This document shows positions 28,670 to 56,594 of a stretch of DNA of 64,000 nt, piece by piece (the first letter of the stretch is position 1; each line of letters begins with the position of its first letter). The position numbers and the translations under genes are program-made. A model generated the notes under the pieces. That model was not told the origin of the DNA. It was given only the letters and a program-made list of their open reading frames with translations, and searched no databases. This stretch comes from a virus: positions 1 to 64,000 of the IMG/VR virus record IMGVR_UViG_3300046522_000297; one strand, given 5' to 3'.

Positions 28670-29938
28670 ATGGCATCACCCATTAGTAAGCTCCCGCTGA
28701 ACGAGTTGTATTTAAAGAAAATTACACCTTCCGTAGAAGCGGCTATCCACAAACTAGAAGATTTCTCCAGGATCAGCCCCGACTACTGCAAGAACGTATG
28801 TAGACTTAAGTGCAAGAACCCCCGGGGAGCATCCCTACTTCCGAGCCAAGAGCTCGATATCTTAATCATTCAAGACCACGCAGCGCCGAAAGGTAAGTAC
28901 GACCGAGTTGATAACGCCCAAGAACTCATACAGAAGAACATCATTGAGTTCATCTGTCAAAAGGCTGGGTTCCAAGGCCTTCAGTATCGAATCACTAATT
29001 TGCTGAAGTGTGCTCCGAATGACCTTGATTTCCCTAAGGGTAAGAGTCCGACAGTCACCGTACTATCGAAGTGCAAACCTTATCTTTTAGCTGAGATCGA
29101 AAGAACTAAACCCAAGGTCATCATCAGCCTTAGTACTGCAGTAACCAAGGCCCTGGGTTTTAAGAAACATTCTAACACTGGTAACCGGGGTGAATTCGTA
29201 GGTAACGTACTGATCACCTTGCACCCTAGAGTGTTGACGATGATCCGTCAAAATGCTAGTGGCAAGTTGTGGGGTAACGACTACTTCAATGTCATCAAGC
29301 GTGACTTTGAAAAGGCTGCAAACATGGCCCGGGGTAAGTTGATAATTCCTCCGGTAGCAGAAGGGGTTGAACGCCAACGTAAGAACATCCGTATTACTCG
29401 TACTATTGACGATGTTCGCCGTGTTGTAGAGACTATCGCTAACCTCCCTGAGAGAACGATGATAAGCCTCGACACGGAAACGAACAGTCTCGACGGTTTG
29501 AGCGAAGGTGCGAAGCTGTTGACCATACAGTTTGGCTGGAGAGATCCCGAGACTAAGCAGTACGTAGCAGCGGTGATACCGTTGTGGCACAGAGCCAATG
29601 ATATGTATAGCGCCGATCTGGCGTGGAAATTGATTGTACCGTTGTTGGTCAATCCTAGAATCCCTAAAGTTCTGCACAACGCAAAATTCGACATCTTGTT
29701 CATTTATCATACAACCGGTGTCCGGGTTGAGGGCTTTGAATTCGATACCATGTTGATGTTACATGCCTTGGACTCGGGTATTCAGGGTTGCTATGGTTTG
29801 AAGGCTGCCGTATGGGATCACATGCCAGAATTAGGACTGGGCGGTTACGAAGAATTGTTGCCAAAATTGACTAAAGTTAAGAAACCTAAAGAAGATGGCT
29901 CGGCAGAATGGGAAGATGATGAAGAGGCAGCAGAATGA
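28670..29938 (+). CDS. DNA polymerase part 1: uracil-DNA glycosylase domain plus start of 3'-5' exonuclease domain
   Basis: A 422-residue protein. The N terminus has C40, C44 and C48 and later LLKCAPND, CKPYLLAEIE and KPKVIISLS, the pattern of family 4-type UDGs; ITLHPR is the glycosylase C-terminal motif. From about 255 a DnaQ-like exonuclease begins: Exo I SLDTETNS (about 266) and Exo II HNAKFDIL (about 336). The Exo III motif is not here but in the ORF starting at 30602. SPO1-type phage polymerases carry UDG, exonuclease and Pol A in one chain, so this is the front part of a split polymerase. Confidence 0.75.
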   Translation: MASPISKLPLNELYLKKITPSVEAAIHKLEDFSRISPDYCKNVCRLKCKNPRGASLLPSQELDILIIQDHAAPKGKYDRVDNAQELIQKNIIEFICQKAGFQGLQYRITNLLKCAPNDLDFPKGKSPTVTVLSKCKPYLLAEIERTKPKVIISLSTAVTKALGFKKHSNTGNRGEFVGNVLITLHPRVLTMIRQNASGKLWGNDYFNVIKRDFEKAANMARGKLIIPPVAEGVERQRKNIRITRTIDDVRRVVETIANLPERTMISLDTETNSLDGLSEGAKLLTIQFGWRDPETKQYVAAVIPLWHRANDMYSADLAWKLIVPLLVNPRIPKVLHNAKFDILFIYHTTGVRVEGFEFDTMLMLHALDSGIQGCYGLKAAVWDHMPELGLGGYEELLPKLTKVKKPKEDGSAEWEDDEEAAE

Positions 29939-30135
29939 CTGCGATGACCCAAGAACTTGTAGATAAGGTGGTAGAACTCAGACGACGGACCGGCCAGCCT
30001 GCAATGCATTGTCGCAGAGCTTTGGCTCGGAACGAATGGGACTTGGAAAGATCAGTCGAGTTCCTTGAACAGTTCGGCTGGGATAGCCACGGGTTTCAAC
30101 GAGATAGAAAGTGGTTAGATAATGGCGGATATTAA
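29935..30135 (+). CDS. EF-Ts N-terminal (UBA/TS-N)-like small protein
   Basis: A 66-residue protein. LVDKVVELRRRTGQPAMHC followed by RRALARNEWDLERSVEFL matches the EF-Ts N-terminal consensus 'vkeLRerTGagmmdCkkAL.ea.gdie.Ai..l'. In EF-Ts this small domain contacts EF-Tu; UBA-like domains also bind other partners. It is coupled by overlap to the polymerase part 1 gene and is the first of three small ORFs lying between the polymerase halves. The homology is read by eye but the match is good. Confidence 0.6.
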   Translation: MTAMTQELVDKVVELRRRTGQPAMHCRRALARNEWDLERSVEFLEQFGWDSHGFQRDRKWLDNGGY

Positions 30136-30349
30136 ACGGTATCAACTGGTCTTGGTCAGAGGAAGCATCCCTGAACTGAGGGAAAGTCCTAAGGGCAGTT
30201 ACGTCGACTATCTTGAATATGAAAGATTGGAAGACGTCAGCAACGCCAAAAGTGTAATGATTGAAATTCTCCGTAGGGAACTTGATCAGATGCGTCGTAT
30301 GGCGAAAACCCGTGGATGGAAAGACTTCACGGAGGCACCCAATGACTAG
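30122..30349 (+). CDS. Hypothetical protein between polymerase halves
   Basis: A 75-residue charged protein (MADIKRYQLVLVRGSIPEL; helical C-terminal half). It overlaps both neighbours (14 bp upstream and 8 bp downstream) and ends with TAG. No motif recognised. Confidence 0.55.
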   Translation: MADIKRYQLVLVRGSIPELRESPKGSYVDYLEYERLEDVSNAKSVMIEILRRELDQMRRMAKTRGWKDFTEAPND

Positions 30350-30602
30350 CGGTCTTTTAAAGCGGATTCATGTTAATCAACATAACATCCGTGCCAATAA
30401 GAAAAACAATAACACCGAGTTACCGGTGTTTACTGTTAAGACGTACAAAGAGAACCTCATTGCTAACGCAGTGAGCATAGATGGGCCTAGTGTTATGGTA
30501 TATCGGCCTGGCGATCCTTTGAGTTGTGGTGCACATTGCTGGCTCGAAACCCGGGCACCGGTTCAGGTTCATAACAACGACGGTTCTACAAAGGAAGTAT
30601 AA
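30342..30602 (+). CDS. Hypothetical protein between polymerase halves
   Basis: An 86-residue protein; ATG 30342 follows GGAGGCACCC, a strong RBS. It begins MTSGLLKRIHVNQHNIRANK and contains CGAHCW. Its stop overlaps the start of the polymerase ORF (TAATG), so translation is coupled to the polymerase. Function unknown. Confidence 0.6.
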   Translation: MTSGLLKRIHVNQHNIRANKKNNNTELPVFTVKTYKENLIANAVSIDGPSVMVYRPGDPLSCGAHCWLETRAPVQVHNNDGSTKEV

Positions 30603-31626
30603 TGGCAGTCAAAACAACTAAAACAGCACCGACTGAACCTGTAAAAGCAGTATATAAGACATACGAGGATTTCAATGCAGAAGAGTTGTACCTGTACGCA
30701 GGGCTCGACTGTATCGTAACCTCGACTCTACTGGAACGTATCTTCCCGTTCCTCGCTGAGGAACCAGTGTACTTTATGCCAGGTAAGGACGGCCGTCCAG
30801 TGCCGACTCACTCCAAGAGTATTCTAGAAACAAACGAAGAGATTACGAAGCTGGCCTTTGAGTACATCCTTGACATGGAGATCAACGGCCTGAAGTACGA
30901 CGTGGCTAAAAACCGTGAGATCAAAGCACAGATGGAAGCTGAGATCGCCGATCTCGAACGTAAGATTTTCGACAGCGGTAAAGTCCCCCTGAACATCAAC
31001 TTCGACTCTGGTAAAGAGATGGTTGAGCTGCTGTACAATCAGCTAGGGTTTACTCCACCGTCTTTCACGGCTTCCGGTGAGCCAAGTACCGACGGTGAAG
31101 CTTTGTTGACCCTGGCAGGGCTTAATCCTCTAAATCCACCAAAAGATTATAAGACCCCGGATCCAGAGTTGCAGTTCTTGGCGTACCTTGCAAAGCGTAA
31201 GGACATTAATTCAACCTGTAACACTTTTATAAGAACATATGTCGAAGACTTCGTCAAAAGGGATGGACGTATTCATCCGTCGTATAACCTTCATGGGACC
31301 AGTGGTTTCAGGATTAGTGGCGATAGTCCTAATCTCACTCAACTCCCTCGGCCTAAGCACGGATATAATATCAGGGAGTGCTATGGGGTCGACGACGGTA
31401 ATGTGTTCATCGCATTTGACTTCAGCTCCGCAGAAGTAAAGATCGTTGCAGCGCTGTGCAAAGACCCGGCAATGTTGAAGGCCGTGGAAGAAGGTCGAGA
31501 TTTCCACTCGTCTTCTGCATCTCTTATGATAGGTGTGCCCTATGAAGAAGTGGTGGCGGTACTAGAAGATAAGAAGCATCCGAAGTTTGCTGAGTATAAA
31601 CATTGGCGGCAAGTAGCGAAAATCCT
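30602..31626 (+). CDS. DNA polymerase part 2 (Exo III and Pol A domain), exon 1
   Basis: The first 341 codons and 2 nt. Exo III LYAGLD (Tyr32-x3-Asp36) lies at the very N terminus, completing the exonuclease begun in the 28670 gene. Pol A motif A is AFDFSSAEVK (about 274), and motif B starts with RQVAKIL. Without splicing the frame runs on to a stop at 31660. Joining 31626 to 32326 restores RQVAKILTFSLIYG, an exact RxxxKxxxFxxxYG motif B. The spliced protein is 537 residues. Confidence 0.8.
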
Positions 31627-32325
31627 TAAATCGGTAGGGGCACTATACGGCAACGTATAATGTTAACGGTGTGAATTCAGGGGAAGTCTAAACATTTGAC
31701 ATTCTGTGGTATAACCCTTAAAATCAAATGCATGATAATCCTGAGCGAAGCCGAATGAAAACTTATAGAGATAAAACTTGTTTAATTTGTAATATAGTAT
31801 TTACACCTACAGGGCAGAATAATAAATACTGTAAACCCTGTGCAGAACAAAAGTGGAAGAATAAAGCTGCAGAGTATCAACAGTCTTATCGCATACGAAA
31901 TGGGATTATTAAAAACCCCGGAGTCGGAAGTGGTAACGGAGTTCCTGCAGGAAAGGAACATCATTCTTATAAGACTGGTATCGGCTACTTCCATAAAAAT
32001 GCTAAGCGCATTAAAGAAGAAAGACGTTATTGCAATAGATGTAACAAGGATCTTATCGATGCAACTAGATACCACTGGTGCATACAGCACATCGATCATG
32101 ATCGTACTAATAACGTAGATTCTAACTTTGAGCTTCTGTGTAAACGCTGTCATCAAATAGAGCATGAATGTCATAAGGCATTCGGAACGTCCAACGACTA
32201 GTCCTAGAGACGTAGGGCCCAAGAGGGTTCGAAGCGCACCGGATCCCACGTGGATCATGATATAGTCTGACCTGCATGGAAACATGCAGAGGGTTAGCGG
32301 AATCGGCTAATCCGTAACATAAGTG
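31627..32325 (+). other. Group I intron in DNA polymerase motif B
   Basis: A 699-nt intron. Its removal restores the polymerase frame and motif B. Core elements visible are GAATTCAGGGGAAGTCTAA (P4 region, near 31674), AATCCTGAGCGAAGCC (core, near 31737), GATATAGTCTGACC (P7 region, near 32259) and a terminal AAGTG with the last G at 32325 as omega-G. The last exon base before the intron is T. It carries an HNH ORF in a peripheral loop. Confidence 0.85.
31755..32201 (+). CDS. Intron-encoded HNH homing endonuclease
   Basis: 148 residues from ATG 31755 (an in-frame ATG at 31728 overlaps the conserved intron core and is less likely). Two zinc pairs (CLICNIVF, YCKPC) precede the core with CNRCNKDL, CIQHIDHDRTNN and LLCKRCHQIEHE. 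It would cut intronless polymerase alleles to spread the intron. It ends in TAG. Confidence 0.8.
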   Translation: MKTYRDKTCLICNIVFTPTGQNNKYCKPCAEQKWKNKAAEYQQSYRIRNGIIKNPGVGSGNGVPAGKEHHSYKTGIGYFHKNAKRIKEERRYCNRCNKDLIDATRYHWCIQHIDHDRTNNVDSNFELLCKRCHQIEHECHKAFGTSND

Positions 32326-32914
32326 AACATTTTCGCTAATTTATGGCTCGTCCGCTGGTGGTATTGCAATGCAGTTGAACGTAAGTAAAGATGAAGCTCA
32401 GCGTCTGATGGACCTGTTCTTCAAGGCTTACCCGAAAATGCTTGAGTTCATCGATAACGCACACAAGATGGCTACCTGGAATCAGCGAGTTGTTACCGAG
32501 TTCGGTCAACGTCGTCAAGAATACGGTACCTATAAGTGCTTCGACCGTACGGCTGCTAAGAATGCAGCTCTGCGTAACTCGGCGAACGTTCTGGTTCAAT
32601 CTGCGACCTCGACCCTCGGCCTTATTGTGTTTGCTCATCTAAACAGAGCTATCAAGAAAATCGGTGGCAAGGCTATTTGTACCGTGTATGACTCTTGTGA
32701 GTTTGAAGTACCGCAGGAGAGAGCAGCAGAGGCAATTGAGCTGTGCTTCTATTACCTCAACGATTTCCCGCAGACCATCTTCCCGTGGCTGACGTTGCCA
32801 ATCGGCTGTGATGGTGAGTTGGGCCTCAACTGGGGTGAGTGTGAACACGTTAAGCGTGGCATCACTCAAGAAGCATGTAACGATATTATCTATGAATTGA
32901 GAGGTGCTGCGTAA
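32326..32914 (+). CDS. DNA polymerase part 2, exon 2 (fingers and palm C-terminal part)
   Basis: The second exon supplies TFSLIYGSSAGGIA of motif B and motif C as VYDSCEFEV, with the catalytic Asp. An internal ATG at 32369 opens the visible unspliced frame but would lack motif B. The stop overlaps the ATG of the next small gene (TAATG). Confidence 0.8.
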
Positions 32915-43312: not shown

Positions 43313-43388
43313 GGGGGTATAGCTCAGTGGTCAGAGCAGAGGCTTCTAAACCCTTGTGTCCGGAGTTCGAATCTCCGTGCCCCCACCA
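43313..43388 (+). tRNA. Probable amber-suppressor tRNA (CTA)
   Basis: Full cloverleaf: acceptor GGGGGTA/TGCCCCC, TA, D-stem GCTC/GAGC, A26, anticodon stem GAGG(C)/(C)CCTT, T-arm CGGAG-TTCGAAT-CTCCG, CCA encoded. Standard numbering puts loop 32-38 at TTCTAAA with U33 and anticodon CTA, which reads UAG. Pair 31-39 is C-C. The alternative Arg (TCT) register lacks position 26 and has two stem mismatches. Downstream genes at 43730 and 44059 contain in-frame TAG, supporting CTA. Confidence 0.7.
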
Positions 43389-43729: not shown

Positions 43730-44062
43730 ATGACGTAGATTTCCGAACACACCTACAATTACGTTTTTGTCAGAACTGATTTACCCATCCCTCAACAGCT
43801 AGTCCAAGCTGGACACGCTGCCTTAGAAGCTGGAGCAACTTTCGGTCGCATATCGAAAGACCCTGCTTCCCTCATCATACTTCAAGTAAAGAACAAAGCT
43901 AAGCTTGAAGAAGCAATGGCCAAGATCCAAGAGGCCGGAATCCGAATAGAAGCATTTTACGAGCCCGACTGGGACTATGGTTTAACTGCGTTTGCAACTG
44001 AACCCGTGACTCAAGAGAAGCGTAGTATTTTCCGAAAATTCAGACTCTGGAGCCAGGCATGA
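43730..44062 (+). CDS. PTH2-like peptidyl-tRNA hydrolase with in-frame TAG at codon 3
   Basis: Reading ATG ACG TAG ATT TCC and onward gives a 110-residue protein if TAG is translated. YNYVFVRTDLPIPQQLVQAG, then HAALEAGATFG, SLIILQVKNKAKLEEAM and YEPDWDYGLTAFAT follow the PTH2 fold (compare the canonical PTH2 at 50017). There is no other ATG until about codon 60, so the conserved N terminus needs UAG read-through or a rare AUU start at codon 4. It lies 42 bp after the last tRNA-like element and overlaps the next gene by ATGA. Confidence 0.65.
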
Positions 44063-44625
44063 TTTCCGAAACCTTTGCAGATATGATGCATAACATGAGG
44101 CACTGTTATCAGTTCGAGAACGTGAACATGTATGAACATGGTTCAATGGTGCATGAATCCTTTAAACAACTTATAGCCCAGCTTGAGGGCGGAGAACAGA
44201 TCGTCGATCTTCCTCCGTAGATTTACGAGATTTATGAAGAAACTAAGCACCTACTGGTCAGCGACAAAGACCTGTTTATGTACCATGTGTTTCATGATTG
44301 TGGTAAGCCTGCTTGTCAGACCATAGACGAGCAAGGTAGGAAACACTTCCCGGACCATGCCAAGTGGTCTAAGGAGCAATACGTAAGGATCTTTGGTGAG
44401 AATGGGACTGTACCTGAGTTAATCGGGTCAGATATGGATTTCCATACAAAGTCAGGCGAAGACCTGGCCCACCTGTGGAATTCCCCCTTAGCTCTTACGT
44501 TGTATTTCACGGCCTGGGCTGAGATTATCGCTAACAGTCAAATGTTCGGCGGATTCGACAGTACCAGTTTTAAAATCAAAAAGAAGAAATTGATTCAAGC
44601 AGGTAAAAAATGGAAGAAGAGTTAA
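44059..44625 (+). CDS. HD-domain phosphohydrolase-like protein with in-frame TAG at codon 54
   Basis: From ATG 44059 the frame runs 53 codons to TAG (44218-44220) and then 134 more codons. Read through, it is 188 residues: HGSMVHESFKQL precedes the amber codon, and YHVFHDCGKPACQ, GRKHFPDHAKWS and LIGSDMDFH follow it, an HD-type metal-site pattern (HD...H...D). The first conserved His region is upstream of the TAG, so the full active site needs read-through; ATG 44278 could give a truncated product. It is coupled by ATGA to the PTH2-like gene and overlaps the next gene. Confidence 0.6.
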
Positions 44626-45412: not shown

Positions 45413-45486
45413 GCGTCGCAAACTTTAAGGTGAAGTAACGGACTTTTAATCCGTAAAACTGGGGTCAGTACCCAGGCGACGTACCA
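45413..45486 (+). tRNA. tRNA-Lys (TTT)
   Basis: Acceptor GCGTCGC/GCGACGT, anticodon arm ACGGA-CTTTTAA-TCCGT, T-arm CTGGG-GTCAGTA-CCCAG (loop differs from TTCRA), CCA encoded. Confidence 0.8.
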
Positions 45487-47303: not shown

Positions 47304-47771
47304 ATGGCCAAGAAAGACAAAGAAATATGGGATCAAATCTACCCGAAGTATATACCGGTTGGTAAGATGTGGTCCCGAGTAGAATGGCTCGGAGATAAGC
47401 CTTTATATGGAACGAGGGAAGATTTTGAAGGCTGGGAGGCCCGTGTAGCGGAACTTAATTCCTTGCTGCCTTTAGTAGAGGCCGAATACGGAGCCCGGGC
47501 TGAAGTTAAGAGCACTTCAGTTGAGCATGGATACAGCGGTCGTGATGGGGGCGTTTCCAATCCGATCAATCATCATGATGTTTACATAGAAATAGACAAT
47601 TACTCTAGCAAAGATTATGCGAAGATGTTAGCGGAATACTTTGCTAAGAAATATCCCGGTCTTGGGTTTAAAAAACCTCCACCTGCTCCTGCAATTAAAC
47701 GTAGGGAATATTCAATCGAGAAGAAGTTTAACGATCTTCTCAAATCCAAACGTAACAAGGACTCAGAATGA
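47304..47771 (+). CDS. Hypothetical protein upstream of RtcB
   Basis: A 155-residue charged protein (MAKKDKEIWDQIYPKYI; C-terminal basic IKRREYSIEKKFNDLL). It overlaps the rtcB start by ATGA, suggesting the two are made together. No family recognised. Confidence 0.6.
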   Translation: MAKKDKEIWDQIYPKYIPVGKMWSRVEWLGDKPLYGTREDFEGWEARVAELNSLLPLVEAEYGARAEVKSTSVEHGYSGRDGGVSNPINHHDVYIEIDNYSSKDYAKMLAEYFAKKYPGLGFKKPPPAPAIKRREYSIEKKFNDLLKSKRNKDSE

Positions 47772-48973
47772 GCTTAAACATTGAAAACGTAAAAGACTGG
47801 ACCGAAGGTGTGCCAGTTGAGCAACAAGCAATTCAGCAACTGCGTAATATCGCAAGACTGCCGATTTTAGCCGGACACGTCGCTGTTATGCCGGACGTTC
47901 ATCTGGGTAAAGGTGCAACTGTTGGATCTGTGATTCCGACCGTGGGGGCTATCGTCCCTTCGGCCGTTGGGGTGGACATCGGCTGTGGCATGGTCGCAGT
48001 TAAAACCACGCTGAAAGCAACGGACCTTCCGGAGTCCCTGTCGGGTATTCGCTCAGCGATCGAGGCGGTGGTACCGGTAGGTTTTAACTACCACCAGAAG
48101 CATCTGAGCTTCAAGTCCAAAGGTCTTCGTGGCCTGGCTATCGATCGTAAGTTGAAAGCCTTGGACGAACGCTTTGACAAGCTGCCAATCCTGAAGCGTT
48201 ACAAGAACTTCGATTACCGTCGGGCCTGGAACCAACTCGGCACTCTCGGGGGCGGCAATCACTTCATCGAGATCTGCCTGGACGAAGACAACAACGTCTG
48301 GGTAATGCTTCACTCCGGATCTCGTAACGTTGGCAAAACCATCGGCGAGATCGCAATCAACATGGCTAAAGAGATCGCTGCGAAAGCTGAGATCGGCCTG
48401 GTTGACAAAGAACTGGCCTGGCTTAACGAAGGCACTACCGAGTTCAACGAGTACGTAGAGGGACTGCAATGGGCTCAGGACTACGCTGCTCTGAACCGGG
48501 ACATCATGTTGTTCCATGTCATGGAAGTGTTGGAGAAAGAATTCAAACGTGACATCTGGACCAACGACCACGCAATTAACTGTCATCACAACTATGCAAA
48601 CATCGAAGAATACGGCGGAAGAAAAGTCTGGGTTACCCGCAAAGGAGCTGTTAGTGCAAGACTTGGACAGCTTGGTATCATACCTGGGAGTATGGGTGCA
48701 AGGAGCTACATCACCCGAGGAAAAGGAAACACGGATTCGTATTGCAGTTGCTCTCACGGAGCTGGGCGCGTCCTCTCTAGAACCGCCGCTGCCAAAGTCT
48801 TCACCGTCGAGGATCTGAAGAAACAAACCGAAGGCGTTGAATGTCGTAAAGACGTTGATGTCCTCGACGAGATTCCCGGTGCTTACAAAGACATCGACCT
48901 GGTAATGGAAGCCCAGAAAGATCTCGTGGACAAAGTTCACACCCTGAAACAAGTAATGTGCATTAAAGGTTAA
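47768..48973 (+). CDS. rtcB: RtcB-type RNA ligase
   Basis: A 401-residue GTP-dependent RNA ligase joining 3'-phosphate (or 2',3'-cyclic phosphate) and 5'-OH ends. Family motifs are visible: AVMPDVHLGKGATVG, GVDIGCGM (metal Asp and Cys), GTLGGGNHFIEI, HSGSRNVGK, and near the C terminus SYCSCSHGAGRVLSR with the guanylated His. In a phage full of tRNAs it can repair tRNAs cut by host anticodon nucleases. Confidence 0.9.
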   Translation: MSLNIENVKDWTEGVPVEQQAIQQLRNIARLPILAGHVAVMPDVHLGKGATVGSVIPTVGAIVPSAVGVDIGCGMVAVKTTLKATDLPESLSGIRSAIEAVVPVGFNYHQKHLSFKSKGLRGLAIDRKLKALDERFDKLPILKRYKNFDYRRAWNQLGTLGGGNHFIEICLDEDNNVWVMLHSGSRNVGKTIGEIAINMAKEIAAKAEIGLVDKELAWLNEGTTEFNEYVEGLQWAQDYAALNRDIMLFHVMEVLEKEFKRDIWTNDHAINCHHNYANIEEYGGRKVWVTRKGAVSARLGQLGIIPGSMGARSYITRGKGNTDSYCSCSHGAGRVLSRTAAAKVFTVEDLKKQTEGVECRKDVDVLDEIPGAYKDIDLVMEAQKDLVDKVHTLKQVMCIKG

Positions 48974-50016: not shown

Positions 50017-50379
50017 ATGTCGTATAAACAGGTCATTGTCCTCCGCAAGGATTTGAACATGCGGAAGGGCAAAATGGTGGCTCAAGGCAGCCATGCAGTA
50101 GAAATGGTCATCGACATAGCTCTGGGTAATACAACCTTCAAAACCTACCGAGATAACTGGAAGGCTGAAGGTAGGACCAAGATCTGCGTCAGTGTAGACT
50201 CCGAAGCTGAACTCGTTGAAATTTACCGCAAGGCAAGGGACGCAAAGCTTCCATGTTCCATAGTAACGGACGCTGGTAAAACTGAGTTCGGCGGAGTTCC
50301 TACTAAAACAGCAGTCGCTATTGGGCCCGCACCATTGAGCGACGTCGATAAAATCACTAGTCATTTAAAGCTGCTATAA
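50017..50379 (+). CDS. Peptidyl-tRNA hydrolase 2 (PTH2) family
   Basis: A 120-residue canonical PTH2: YKQVIVLRKDLNMRKGKMVA, QGSHAVEM, KICVSVDSEAELVE, TDAGKTEFGG, VPTKTAVAIGPAP. PTH2 releases tRNA from peptidyl-tRNA that dropped off ribosomes. It is the second PTH2-type gene in the window; the other, with an amber codon, is at 43730. It overlaps the next gene (TAATG). Confidence 0.85.
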   Translation: MSYKQVIVLRKDLNMRKGKMVAQGSHAVEMVIDIALGNTTFKTYRDNWKAEGRTKICVSVDSEAELVEIYRKARDAKLPCSIVTDAGKTEFGGVPTKTAVAIGPAPLSDVDKITSHLKLL

Positions 50380-56524: not shown

Positions 56525-56594
56525 TGTCATGTAACTCAGCGGTAGAGTGCTAGAACCTTTCTAGAAGTCGCCAGTTCGATTCTGGTCACGGCCT
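56525..56594 (+). tRNA. tRNA-like structure at the start of the 56631 leader
   Basis: D-stem ACTC/GAGT with AGCGGTA loop, CTAG/CTAG stem with 7-nt loop AACCTTT (A instead of U33), and a T-arm CCAG-TTCGATT-CTGG. The acceptor TGTCATG/CACGGCC has two mismatches and no CCA. Nominal anticodon CCT. Probably not a working tRNA; more likely a leader element or decayed gene. Confidence 0.45.

Follow-up and report, generated by a model that had tools for sequence, protein, structure and literature searches.

Autoregulation of the release factor RF2 (prfB) relies on an in-frame UGA near the start of the gene, which senses the level of the release factor. Phage suppressor tRNAs that decode in-frame stops are described in code 15 and code 4 phages (Borges 2022; PMC9523058; PMC11210395; PMC10879173), in which, it has been proposed, recoding holds late genes back while the tRNA builds up (PMC9523058; PMC11210395; PMC10879173). 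A phage process that needs a specific phage tRNA is also found in tRNA-dependent lysogeny, in which the tRNA substitutes for a host tRNA lost at integration (PMC10865867), while engineered feed-forward switches in which a suppressor tRNA precedes translation of an amber gene are described in PMC7969014. Suppressor tRNAs of phages that are not recoded have previously lacked a known target. The CUA tRNA of the jumbo phage RsoM2USA stands without explanation (PMC8504454), and the authors of the XacN1 genome found no target for its CUA tRNAs on reading through 18 amber stops (PMC5852040). Here we propose a widely conserved, specific target: in sequence comparisons, many large phages of ordinary genetic code carry a stop at the start of a tRNA-related gene, or of its partner, together with a tRNA that decodes this very stop, and translation of the gene would seem to need the phage's own tRNA.

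The PTH2-like/HD locus

The stretch of DNA analysed (64,000 nucleotides, hereafter the window) is part of a 114,007-bp viral record, IMGVR_UViG_3300046522_000297. Within a tRNA cluster on the plus strand lies a suppressor tRNA gene with anticodon CUA, which reads UAG (43313-43388; ARAGORN, Rfam tRNA 63 bits), and which is the sole tRNA with a stop anticodon across the 114-kb record. A PTH2-like cistron (43730-44062, plus strand) follows 341 bp downstream, opening ATG ACG TAG ATT TCC GAA, with the ATG at 43730, the ACG at 43733 and the conserved early amber codon at codon 3 (43736-43738, plus strand); 107 sense codons then lead to a TGA at 44060-44062. As a preliminary description of the locus had noted, no alternative ATG is met until about codon 60, and codon 60 is indeed the first in-frame ATG, GTG or TTG after the TAG. 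In the predicted fold, strand 1, helix 1 and strand 2 all precede this ATG; strand 1 begins 6 residues past the TAG, so that a start at codon 60 would lose about half of the fold.

The PTH2-like domain of the window scores 22.6 bits against the Pfam PTH2 model (cut-off 23), which is matched by 32 of 41 family members. Its AlphaFold model has a pLDDT of 92.8 and retrieves only Pth2-type structures from the PDB below E=1e-3, and the family profile matches the Pth2 structure 2zv3 (E=6e-7). Coordinates, Pfam and AlphaFold agree with the initial reading of a PTH2-like domain with an amber at codon 3, downstream of a suppressor tRNA. The relationship to the Pth2 family (PF01981) is one of fold and distant sequence similarity, but the stretch around the usual catalytic lysine is shorter and differs in sequence, and the lysine of the Pth2 GKGK segment is unconserved, its position being occupied by Q, Y, L or others. 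Moreover, the same genome encodes a separate, canonical PTH2 (50017-50376, plus strand; Pfam PTH2 119 bits) with an ordinary ATG start, an internal control that is not gated. On both counts, there is reason to doubt that the gated product recycles peptidyl-tRNA, as was first proposed.

An HD-domain cistron (44059-44625, plus strand), whose first 4 bp are shared with the PTH2-like gene, itself contains an amber at codon 54 (44218-44220, plus strand). The HD protein keeps the H...HD...D metal-binding residues (H27, H79-D80, H100 and D125 are invariant), and its profile matches 3wfo with E=0.0017. Foldseek assigns the confident model a probability of 1.0 but an E-value of only 0.08, and Pfam HD is matched by 3 of 14 HD members; by these weak E-values the closest relative is the HD domain of the Aquifex tRNA A-adding enzyme. 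The combination of a Pth2 fold with a tRNA-enzyme-like HD domain suggests that the putative function of the operon is probably tRNA-related. A PADLOC search for known defence proteins gave no match.

Overlapping PTH2-like and HD genes are seen in the group to which the window belongs, and also in those of BF/GAP32/CBB, of the Arash-like phages and of ME3. An amber at the HD site of the window recurs in two other homologues, L005 (DLPP*IxEIYE) and L171 (DLPP*MYELF), while the HD gene of BF, GAP32 and CBB has an independent amber at codon 47. XacN1, RAS14 and CM1 encode an HD-PTH2 fusion that opens ATG AAG TAG, and Tenacibaculum phage pT24 the reverse, PTH2-HD, with the opening ATG AAA TAG; fusions in both orders therefore keep ATG-Lys-TAG on the leading domain. 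In L198, where the HD gene comes first, that gene carries an amber at codon 6 and the following PTH2-like gene has no early stop. The HD gene of L211 is interrupted by an amber at codon 3, and LR745206 carries an early TAG on both genes. Judged by these arrangements, the stop tracks the operon rather than a single domain. An HD gene was not detectable near the PTH2-like gene in many other phages.

Other features of the window include an RtcB RNA ligase gene (47768-48973, Pfam 418 bits) near the tRNA cluster and the canonical PTH2, which together suggest a tRNA-maintenance neighbourhood. Rfam finds tRNAs at 45413-45483 (42.5 bits) and 56525-56594 (38.5 bits) that are absent from the ARAGORN list. 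A family A DNA polymerase is seemingly split over 28670-32914 into pieces at 28670-29938, 30602-31660 and 32369-32914; the first is an exonuclease with a uracil-DNA glycosylase domain, and a possible HNH endonuclease ORF (31728-32270) lies between the second and third. The split region gave no match to an Rfam intron family.

Conservation of the stop and matching suppressor tRNAs

Ninety homologues from metagenomes and from phages of Enterobacterales, Acinetobacter, Xanthomonas, Stenotrophomonas, Tenacibaculum and Mycobacterium were grouped into 57 clusters, with less than 80% identity between clusters. An early in-frame stop, at codon 2-9 after an ATG or GTG, is present in 43 of these (TAG in 41, TGA in L185 and L188), which answers affirmatively the question of whether relatives conserve the TAG and in general excludes the objection that they have a sense codon there. 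In five further clusters a TAG is located at another position of the PTH2-like or HD gene (L171, L198, L206, L210 and L211), and L222 has an internal TGA, bringing suppressible stops outside the early position to six clusters. A start, a short run of codons, a TAG and the domain thus recur in most of these divergent clusters, and with almost no comparable TAG outside the operon in ten scanned genomes the arrangement exceeds chance. IMG/VR homologues of 53-64% identity begin with ATG, one or two codons and an in-frame TAG. Among isolates the opening is ATG ACG CAC TAG in Serratia phage BF and the Erwinia SNUABM phages, ATG GCA CAA TAG in Cronobacter GAP32 and Pectobacterium CBB, ATG ACT TAG in Acinetobacter ME3 and ATG CTG TAG in Salmonella Arash, and an early in-frame TAG is also present in Kaldavass, XbC2 and the huge metagenomic phages LR756511, LR756500 and LR756501. 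Mycobacteriophages Astraea and IkeLoa open ATG TAG GTG, and Myrna, Phabba and ScoobyDoobyDoo GTG TAG GTG, with a CUA tRNA near the gene in Astraea, IkeLoa, Myrna and ScoobyDoobyDoo. The position of the stop varies, from codon 2 in the mycobacteriophages to codon 8-9 in others, and about ten state changes are needed on the protein tree, which is poorly resolved with 57 short sequences. A search of genome contigs returned a single contig, from an Anaerolineae bin.

In one isolated genome a nonsense mutation, a decaying gene or an assembly error would look just like this opening. The recurrence of the same stop in independent assemblies and isolate genomes, each time with an intact, conserved protein downstream, indicates that the amber is genuine and not a sequencing error, and leaves such explanations with almost no credibility. 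A gated stop would also account for systematic misannotation of the family in GenBank and PHROGs, where the gene is unannotated, started late or split. In BF and the SNUABM phages the PTH2-like gene has no GenBank annotation, and in other relatives the GenBank start is too late. The PHROG families phrog_34073 (77 aa) and phrog_26054 (46 aa) resemble fragments cut at the ambers, one lacking the N-terminus and the other stopping at the HD-gene amber. As the annotated start in XacN1 is five codons past the TAG, its authors may have overlooked the gene, and the PTH2-like/HD gene is a strong candidate for the target of the XacN1 CUA tRNAs.

The type of stop follows the anticodon of the suppressor. 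A matching suppressor is present in 42 of 49 clusters with a stop versus 2 of 8 without (p=0.001), and UCA tRNAs are found in all three opal clusters (L185, L188 and L222) but in none of the 54 others (Fisher p=3e-5), both p-values being approximate because the phages share ancestry yet are treated as independent. Pattern scans followed by ARAGORN detected no CUA tRNA in the three opal records. Homologues without a stop mostly lack a suppressor as well: Hallingskeid has seven tRNAs with no suppressor among them and a PTH2-like gene without a stop, and neither suppressor nor stop was found in RaK2, L168 and L212. In ME3 the CUA suppressor is one of only five tRNAs. Counting against a gate are seven stop-bearing clusters without a confirmed suppressor, some of them contig fragments or with unusual tRNA candidates, and two clusters (L205 and L220) that carry a CUA tRNA and a gene free of stops. 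RsoM2USA, which has a CUA tRNA, is not among the homologue matches, so the rule may miss some suppressor-carrying jumbo phages.

In L249 (LR756504), from a phage whose PTH2-like gene opens ATG ACA TAG, the tRNA at 1488-1563 of L249 has an anticodon loop of increased size, called by ARAGORN with the four-base anticodon 'tcta', and is possibly an unusual suppressor, and RAS14 (piece L098) and L173 have candidate ochre (UUA) suppressor tRNAs next to the CUA tRNA. A single amino-acid identity for the suppressors was rejected, as their nearest isoacceptors differ. Their extreme diversity, with no one amino acid, suggests that the reading of the stop itself matters. Nor was faster evolution of the suppressor than of other phage tRNAs supported, since turnover is rapid in all tRNAs of these phages: G000 and G002 encode an identical PTH2-like protein, yet share only 60-89% tRNA identity for most anticodons, and tRNA turnover is therefore much faster than that of this gene.

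Both the unconserved amino-acid type of the suppressor and the fast turnover of all phage tRNAs speak for a stop with no regulatory role, the suppressor being kept for other reasons or as an addiction module and the stop being tolerated owing to efficient readthrough. Neutral stops should, however, be spread across many genes, whereas the stop stays in one operon, near its start, through fusions and re-ordering. We regard the absence of a regulatory role as improbable, though it is the least improbable of the rival explanations.

Genetic code and initiation around the stop

Were TAG a sense codon genome-wide, as in code 15, its presence near the start of a gene would be ordinary, and the CUA tRNA and the in-frame TAG of the adjacent HD gene would be accommodated. 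In ten genomes, however, TAG terminates 1.5-10% of predicted genes, and treating it as sense raises the coding score by no more than 3% in each of 46 loci; in the three opal loci the score falls when TGA is treated as sense. Ten genomes were scanned for a start codon followed by up to six codons, a stop and a coding frame, or for coding-stop-coding arrangements, at thresholds that missed the gene in XacN1, G002 and G000. TAG matches were almost confined to the PTH2-like/HD operon: BF has exactly two, one in each operon gene, and GAP32 and Hallingskeid each have one additional weak match. Seven other PTH2-type genes in the scanned genomes have normal starts. The other in-frame TAGs of the window (4369/4426, 25202, 32199/32205 and 52134) were rejected as readthrough sites, since they resemble gene ends or chance occurrences. 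Of the two hallmarks of recoded phages, the window has the suppressor tRNA for the stop (the CUA tRNA at 43313-43388), but the stop is neither found in many genes nor lost as a terminator. The phages tested use the standard code and the suppressor does not serve a recoded genome; genome-wide recoding is accordingly a very remote explanation of the early TAG.

A purine following UAG favours suppression. Among 41 cluster representatives the base 3' of the early stop is A in 28, G in 12, C in one and T in none, so that a purine follows in 40 of 41 versus 63% expected (p=1.5e-7), while T is the commonest base after natural terminators. The window, with A as its next base, has this permissive context. 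From these counts, the sequence context after the stop bears signs of selection for readthrough.

Translation could instead begin downstream of the stop, at AUU, GUG or another codon, with ATG-x-TAG being a leader ORF involved in re-initiation or attenuation. Initiation at AUU has a precedent in IF3, and AUU follows directly on the stop in 10 of the 41 representatives; in the mycobacteriophages the GTG directly past the TAG could initiate translation, which counts against a gate. Elsewhere this codon is frequently AAC, ACT, GAA or similar, often unable to initiate, and BF has no possible start codon among the 108 codons past its TAG. Initiation solely at AUU codon 4, the case that the preliminary description had regarded as fatal to a gate, is thereby excluded in general. 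Where phages rely on ribosome-binding sites, one stands ahead of the upstream ATG at a distance that suits it (mean -3.8 versus -1.8 kcal/mol in shuffles), although a clear site is missing in the window and in AT-rich phages. The codons ahead of the stop are unconserved, which argues against a leader peptide, and a leader ORF would need no matching anticodon, yet TGA pairs with UCA. A downstream start is therefore an unlikely account of the family.

The short ORF might also be a minigene for sensing peptidyl-tRNA drop-off, the gene being controlled by short peptidyl-tRNAs that build up under a shortage of hydrolase. The Pth2 fold of the gated domain lends this some appeal, as does the ready drop-off of short peptidyl-tRNAs in E. 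coli (PMC10192219). Such a minigene sits poorly with unconserved pre-stop codons and a stop that moves from codon 2 in mycobacteriophages to codon 8-9 elsewhere, and also with the absent Pth2 catalytic lysine and the phages that have the stop on the HD gene instead, and we give it as little weight as a downstream start.

Putative gating mechanism and known systems

We consider it very probable that a dedicated suppressor tRNA licenses the PTH2-like/HD operon in these standard-code phages. The original suggestion that the early amber acts as an on/off gate dependent on the suppressor is strongly supported by the conservation of the stop, its match to the anticodon, the joint loss of both and the readthrough-friendly next base. 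In the window, ribosomes would initiate at the ATG at 43730 and meet UAG at codon 3. When the phage tRNA is missing, host RF1 would terminate after two amino acids; once present and charged, the CUA tRNA would compete with RF1 and decode the UAG to give the PTH2-like protein, and the overlapping HD protein would require a second amber readthrough. With UAG at codon 2-9, synthesis would be set by charged suppressor against RF1 with no sizeable truncated product, suggesting that the stop of the operon most likely works cleanly as a licence, a timer or a sensor. As the products have tRNA-handling folds, the stop most likely ties their synthesis to the ratio of charged phage tRNA to release factor. 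Readthrough in cells, a regulatory purpose and enzyme activity are what we infer from the sequences.

A feedback loop tied to translational stress, as first suggested, is plausible. More speculatively, the operon could be a natural sensor of the tRNA pool, its proteins acting on tRNA while the suppressor to release factor ratio sets their synthesis, a reading that we hold only tentatively. Possible targets would be the suppressor itself, or damaged or peptidyl phage tRNAs, and the phage would gauge how much tRNA it has and adjust the amount, for instance when host defences cut tRNAs. The candidate target is present in well-studied isolates, including cluster C mycobacteriophages, GAP32, CBB, BF and ME3.

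We found no report of this arrangement in the literature searched, which covered few subscription papers or preprints, so its novelty is provisional. The locus shares with code 15 and code 4 phages a phage suppressor tRNA for an in-frame stop, but those phages read TAG or TGA as sense throughout many genes, whereas here the code is standard and the stop is confined to one operon, mostly at codon 2-9. Like prfB, the operon would use an early in-frame stop to sense decoding against termination; prfB, however, does so by a frameshift and senses RF2, while in the phage operon a dedicated phage tRNA would decode the in-frame UAG or UGA, and neither product is a release factor. In tRNA-dependent lysogeny a specific phage tRNA is likewise needed, but no stop is read (PMC10865867). 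The synthetic amber switches of PMC7969014 are engineered; the phage operon, if the model is correct, would be their natural counterpart, an instance of one operon placed under one dedicated tRNA.
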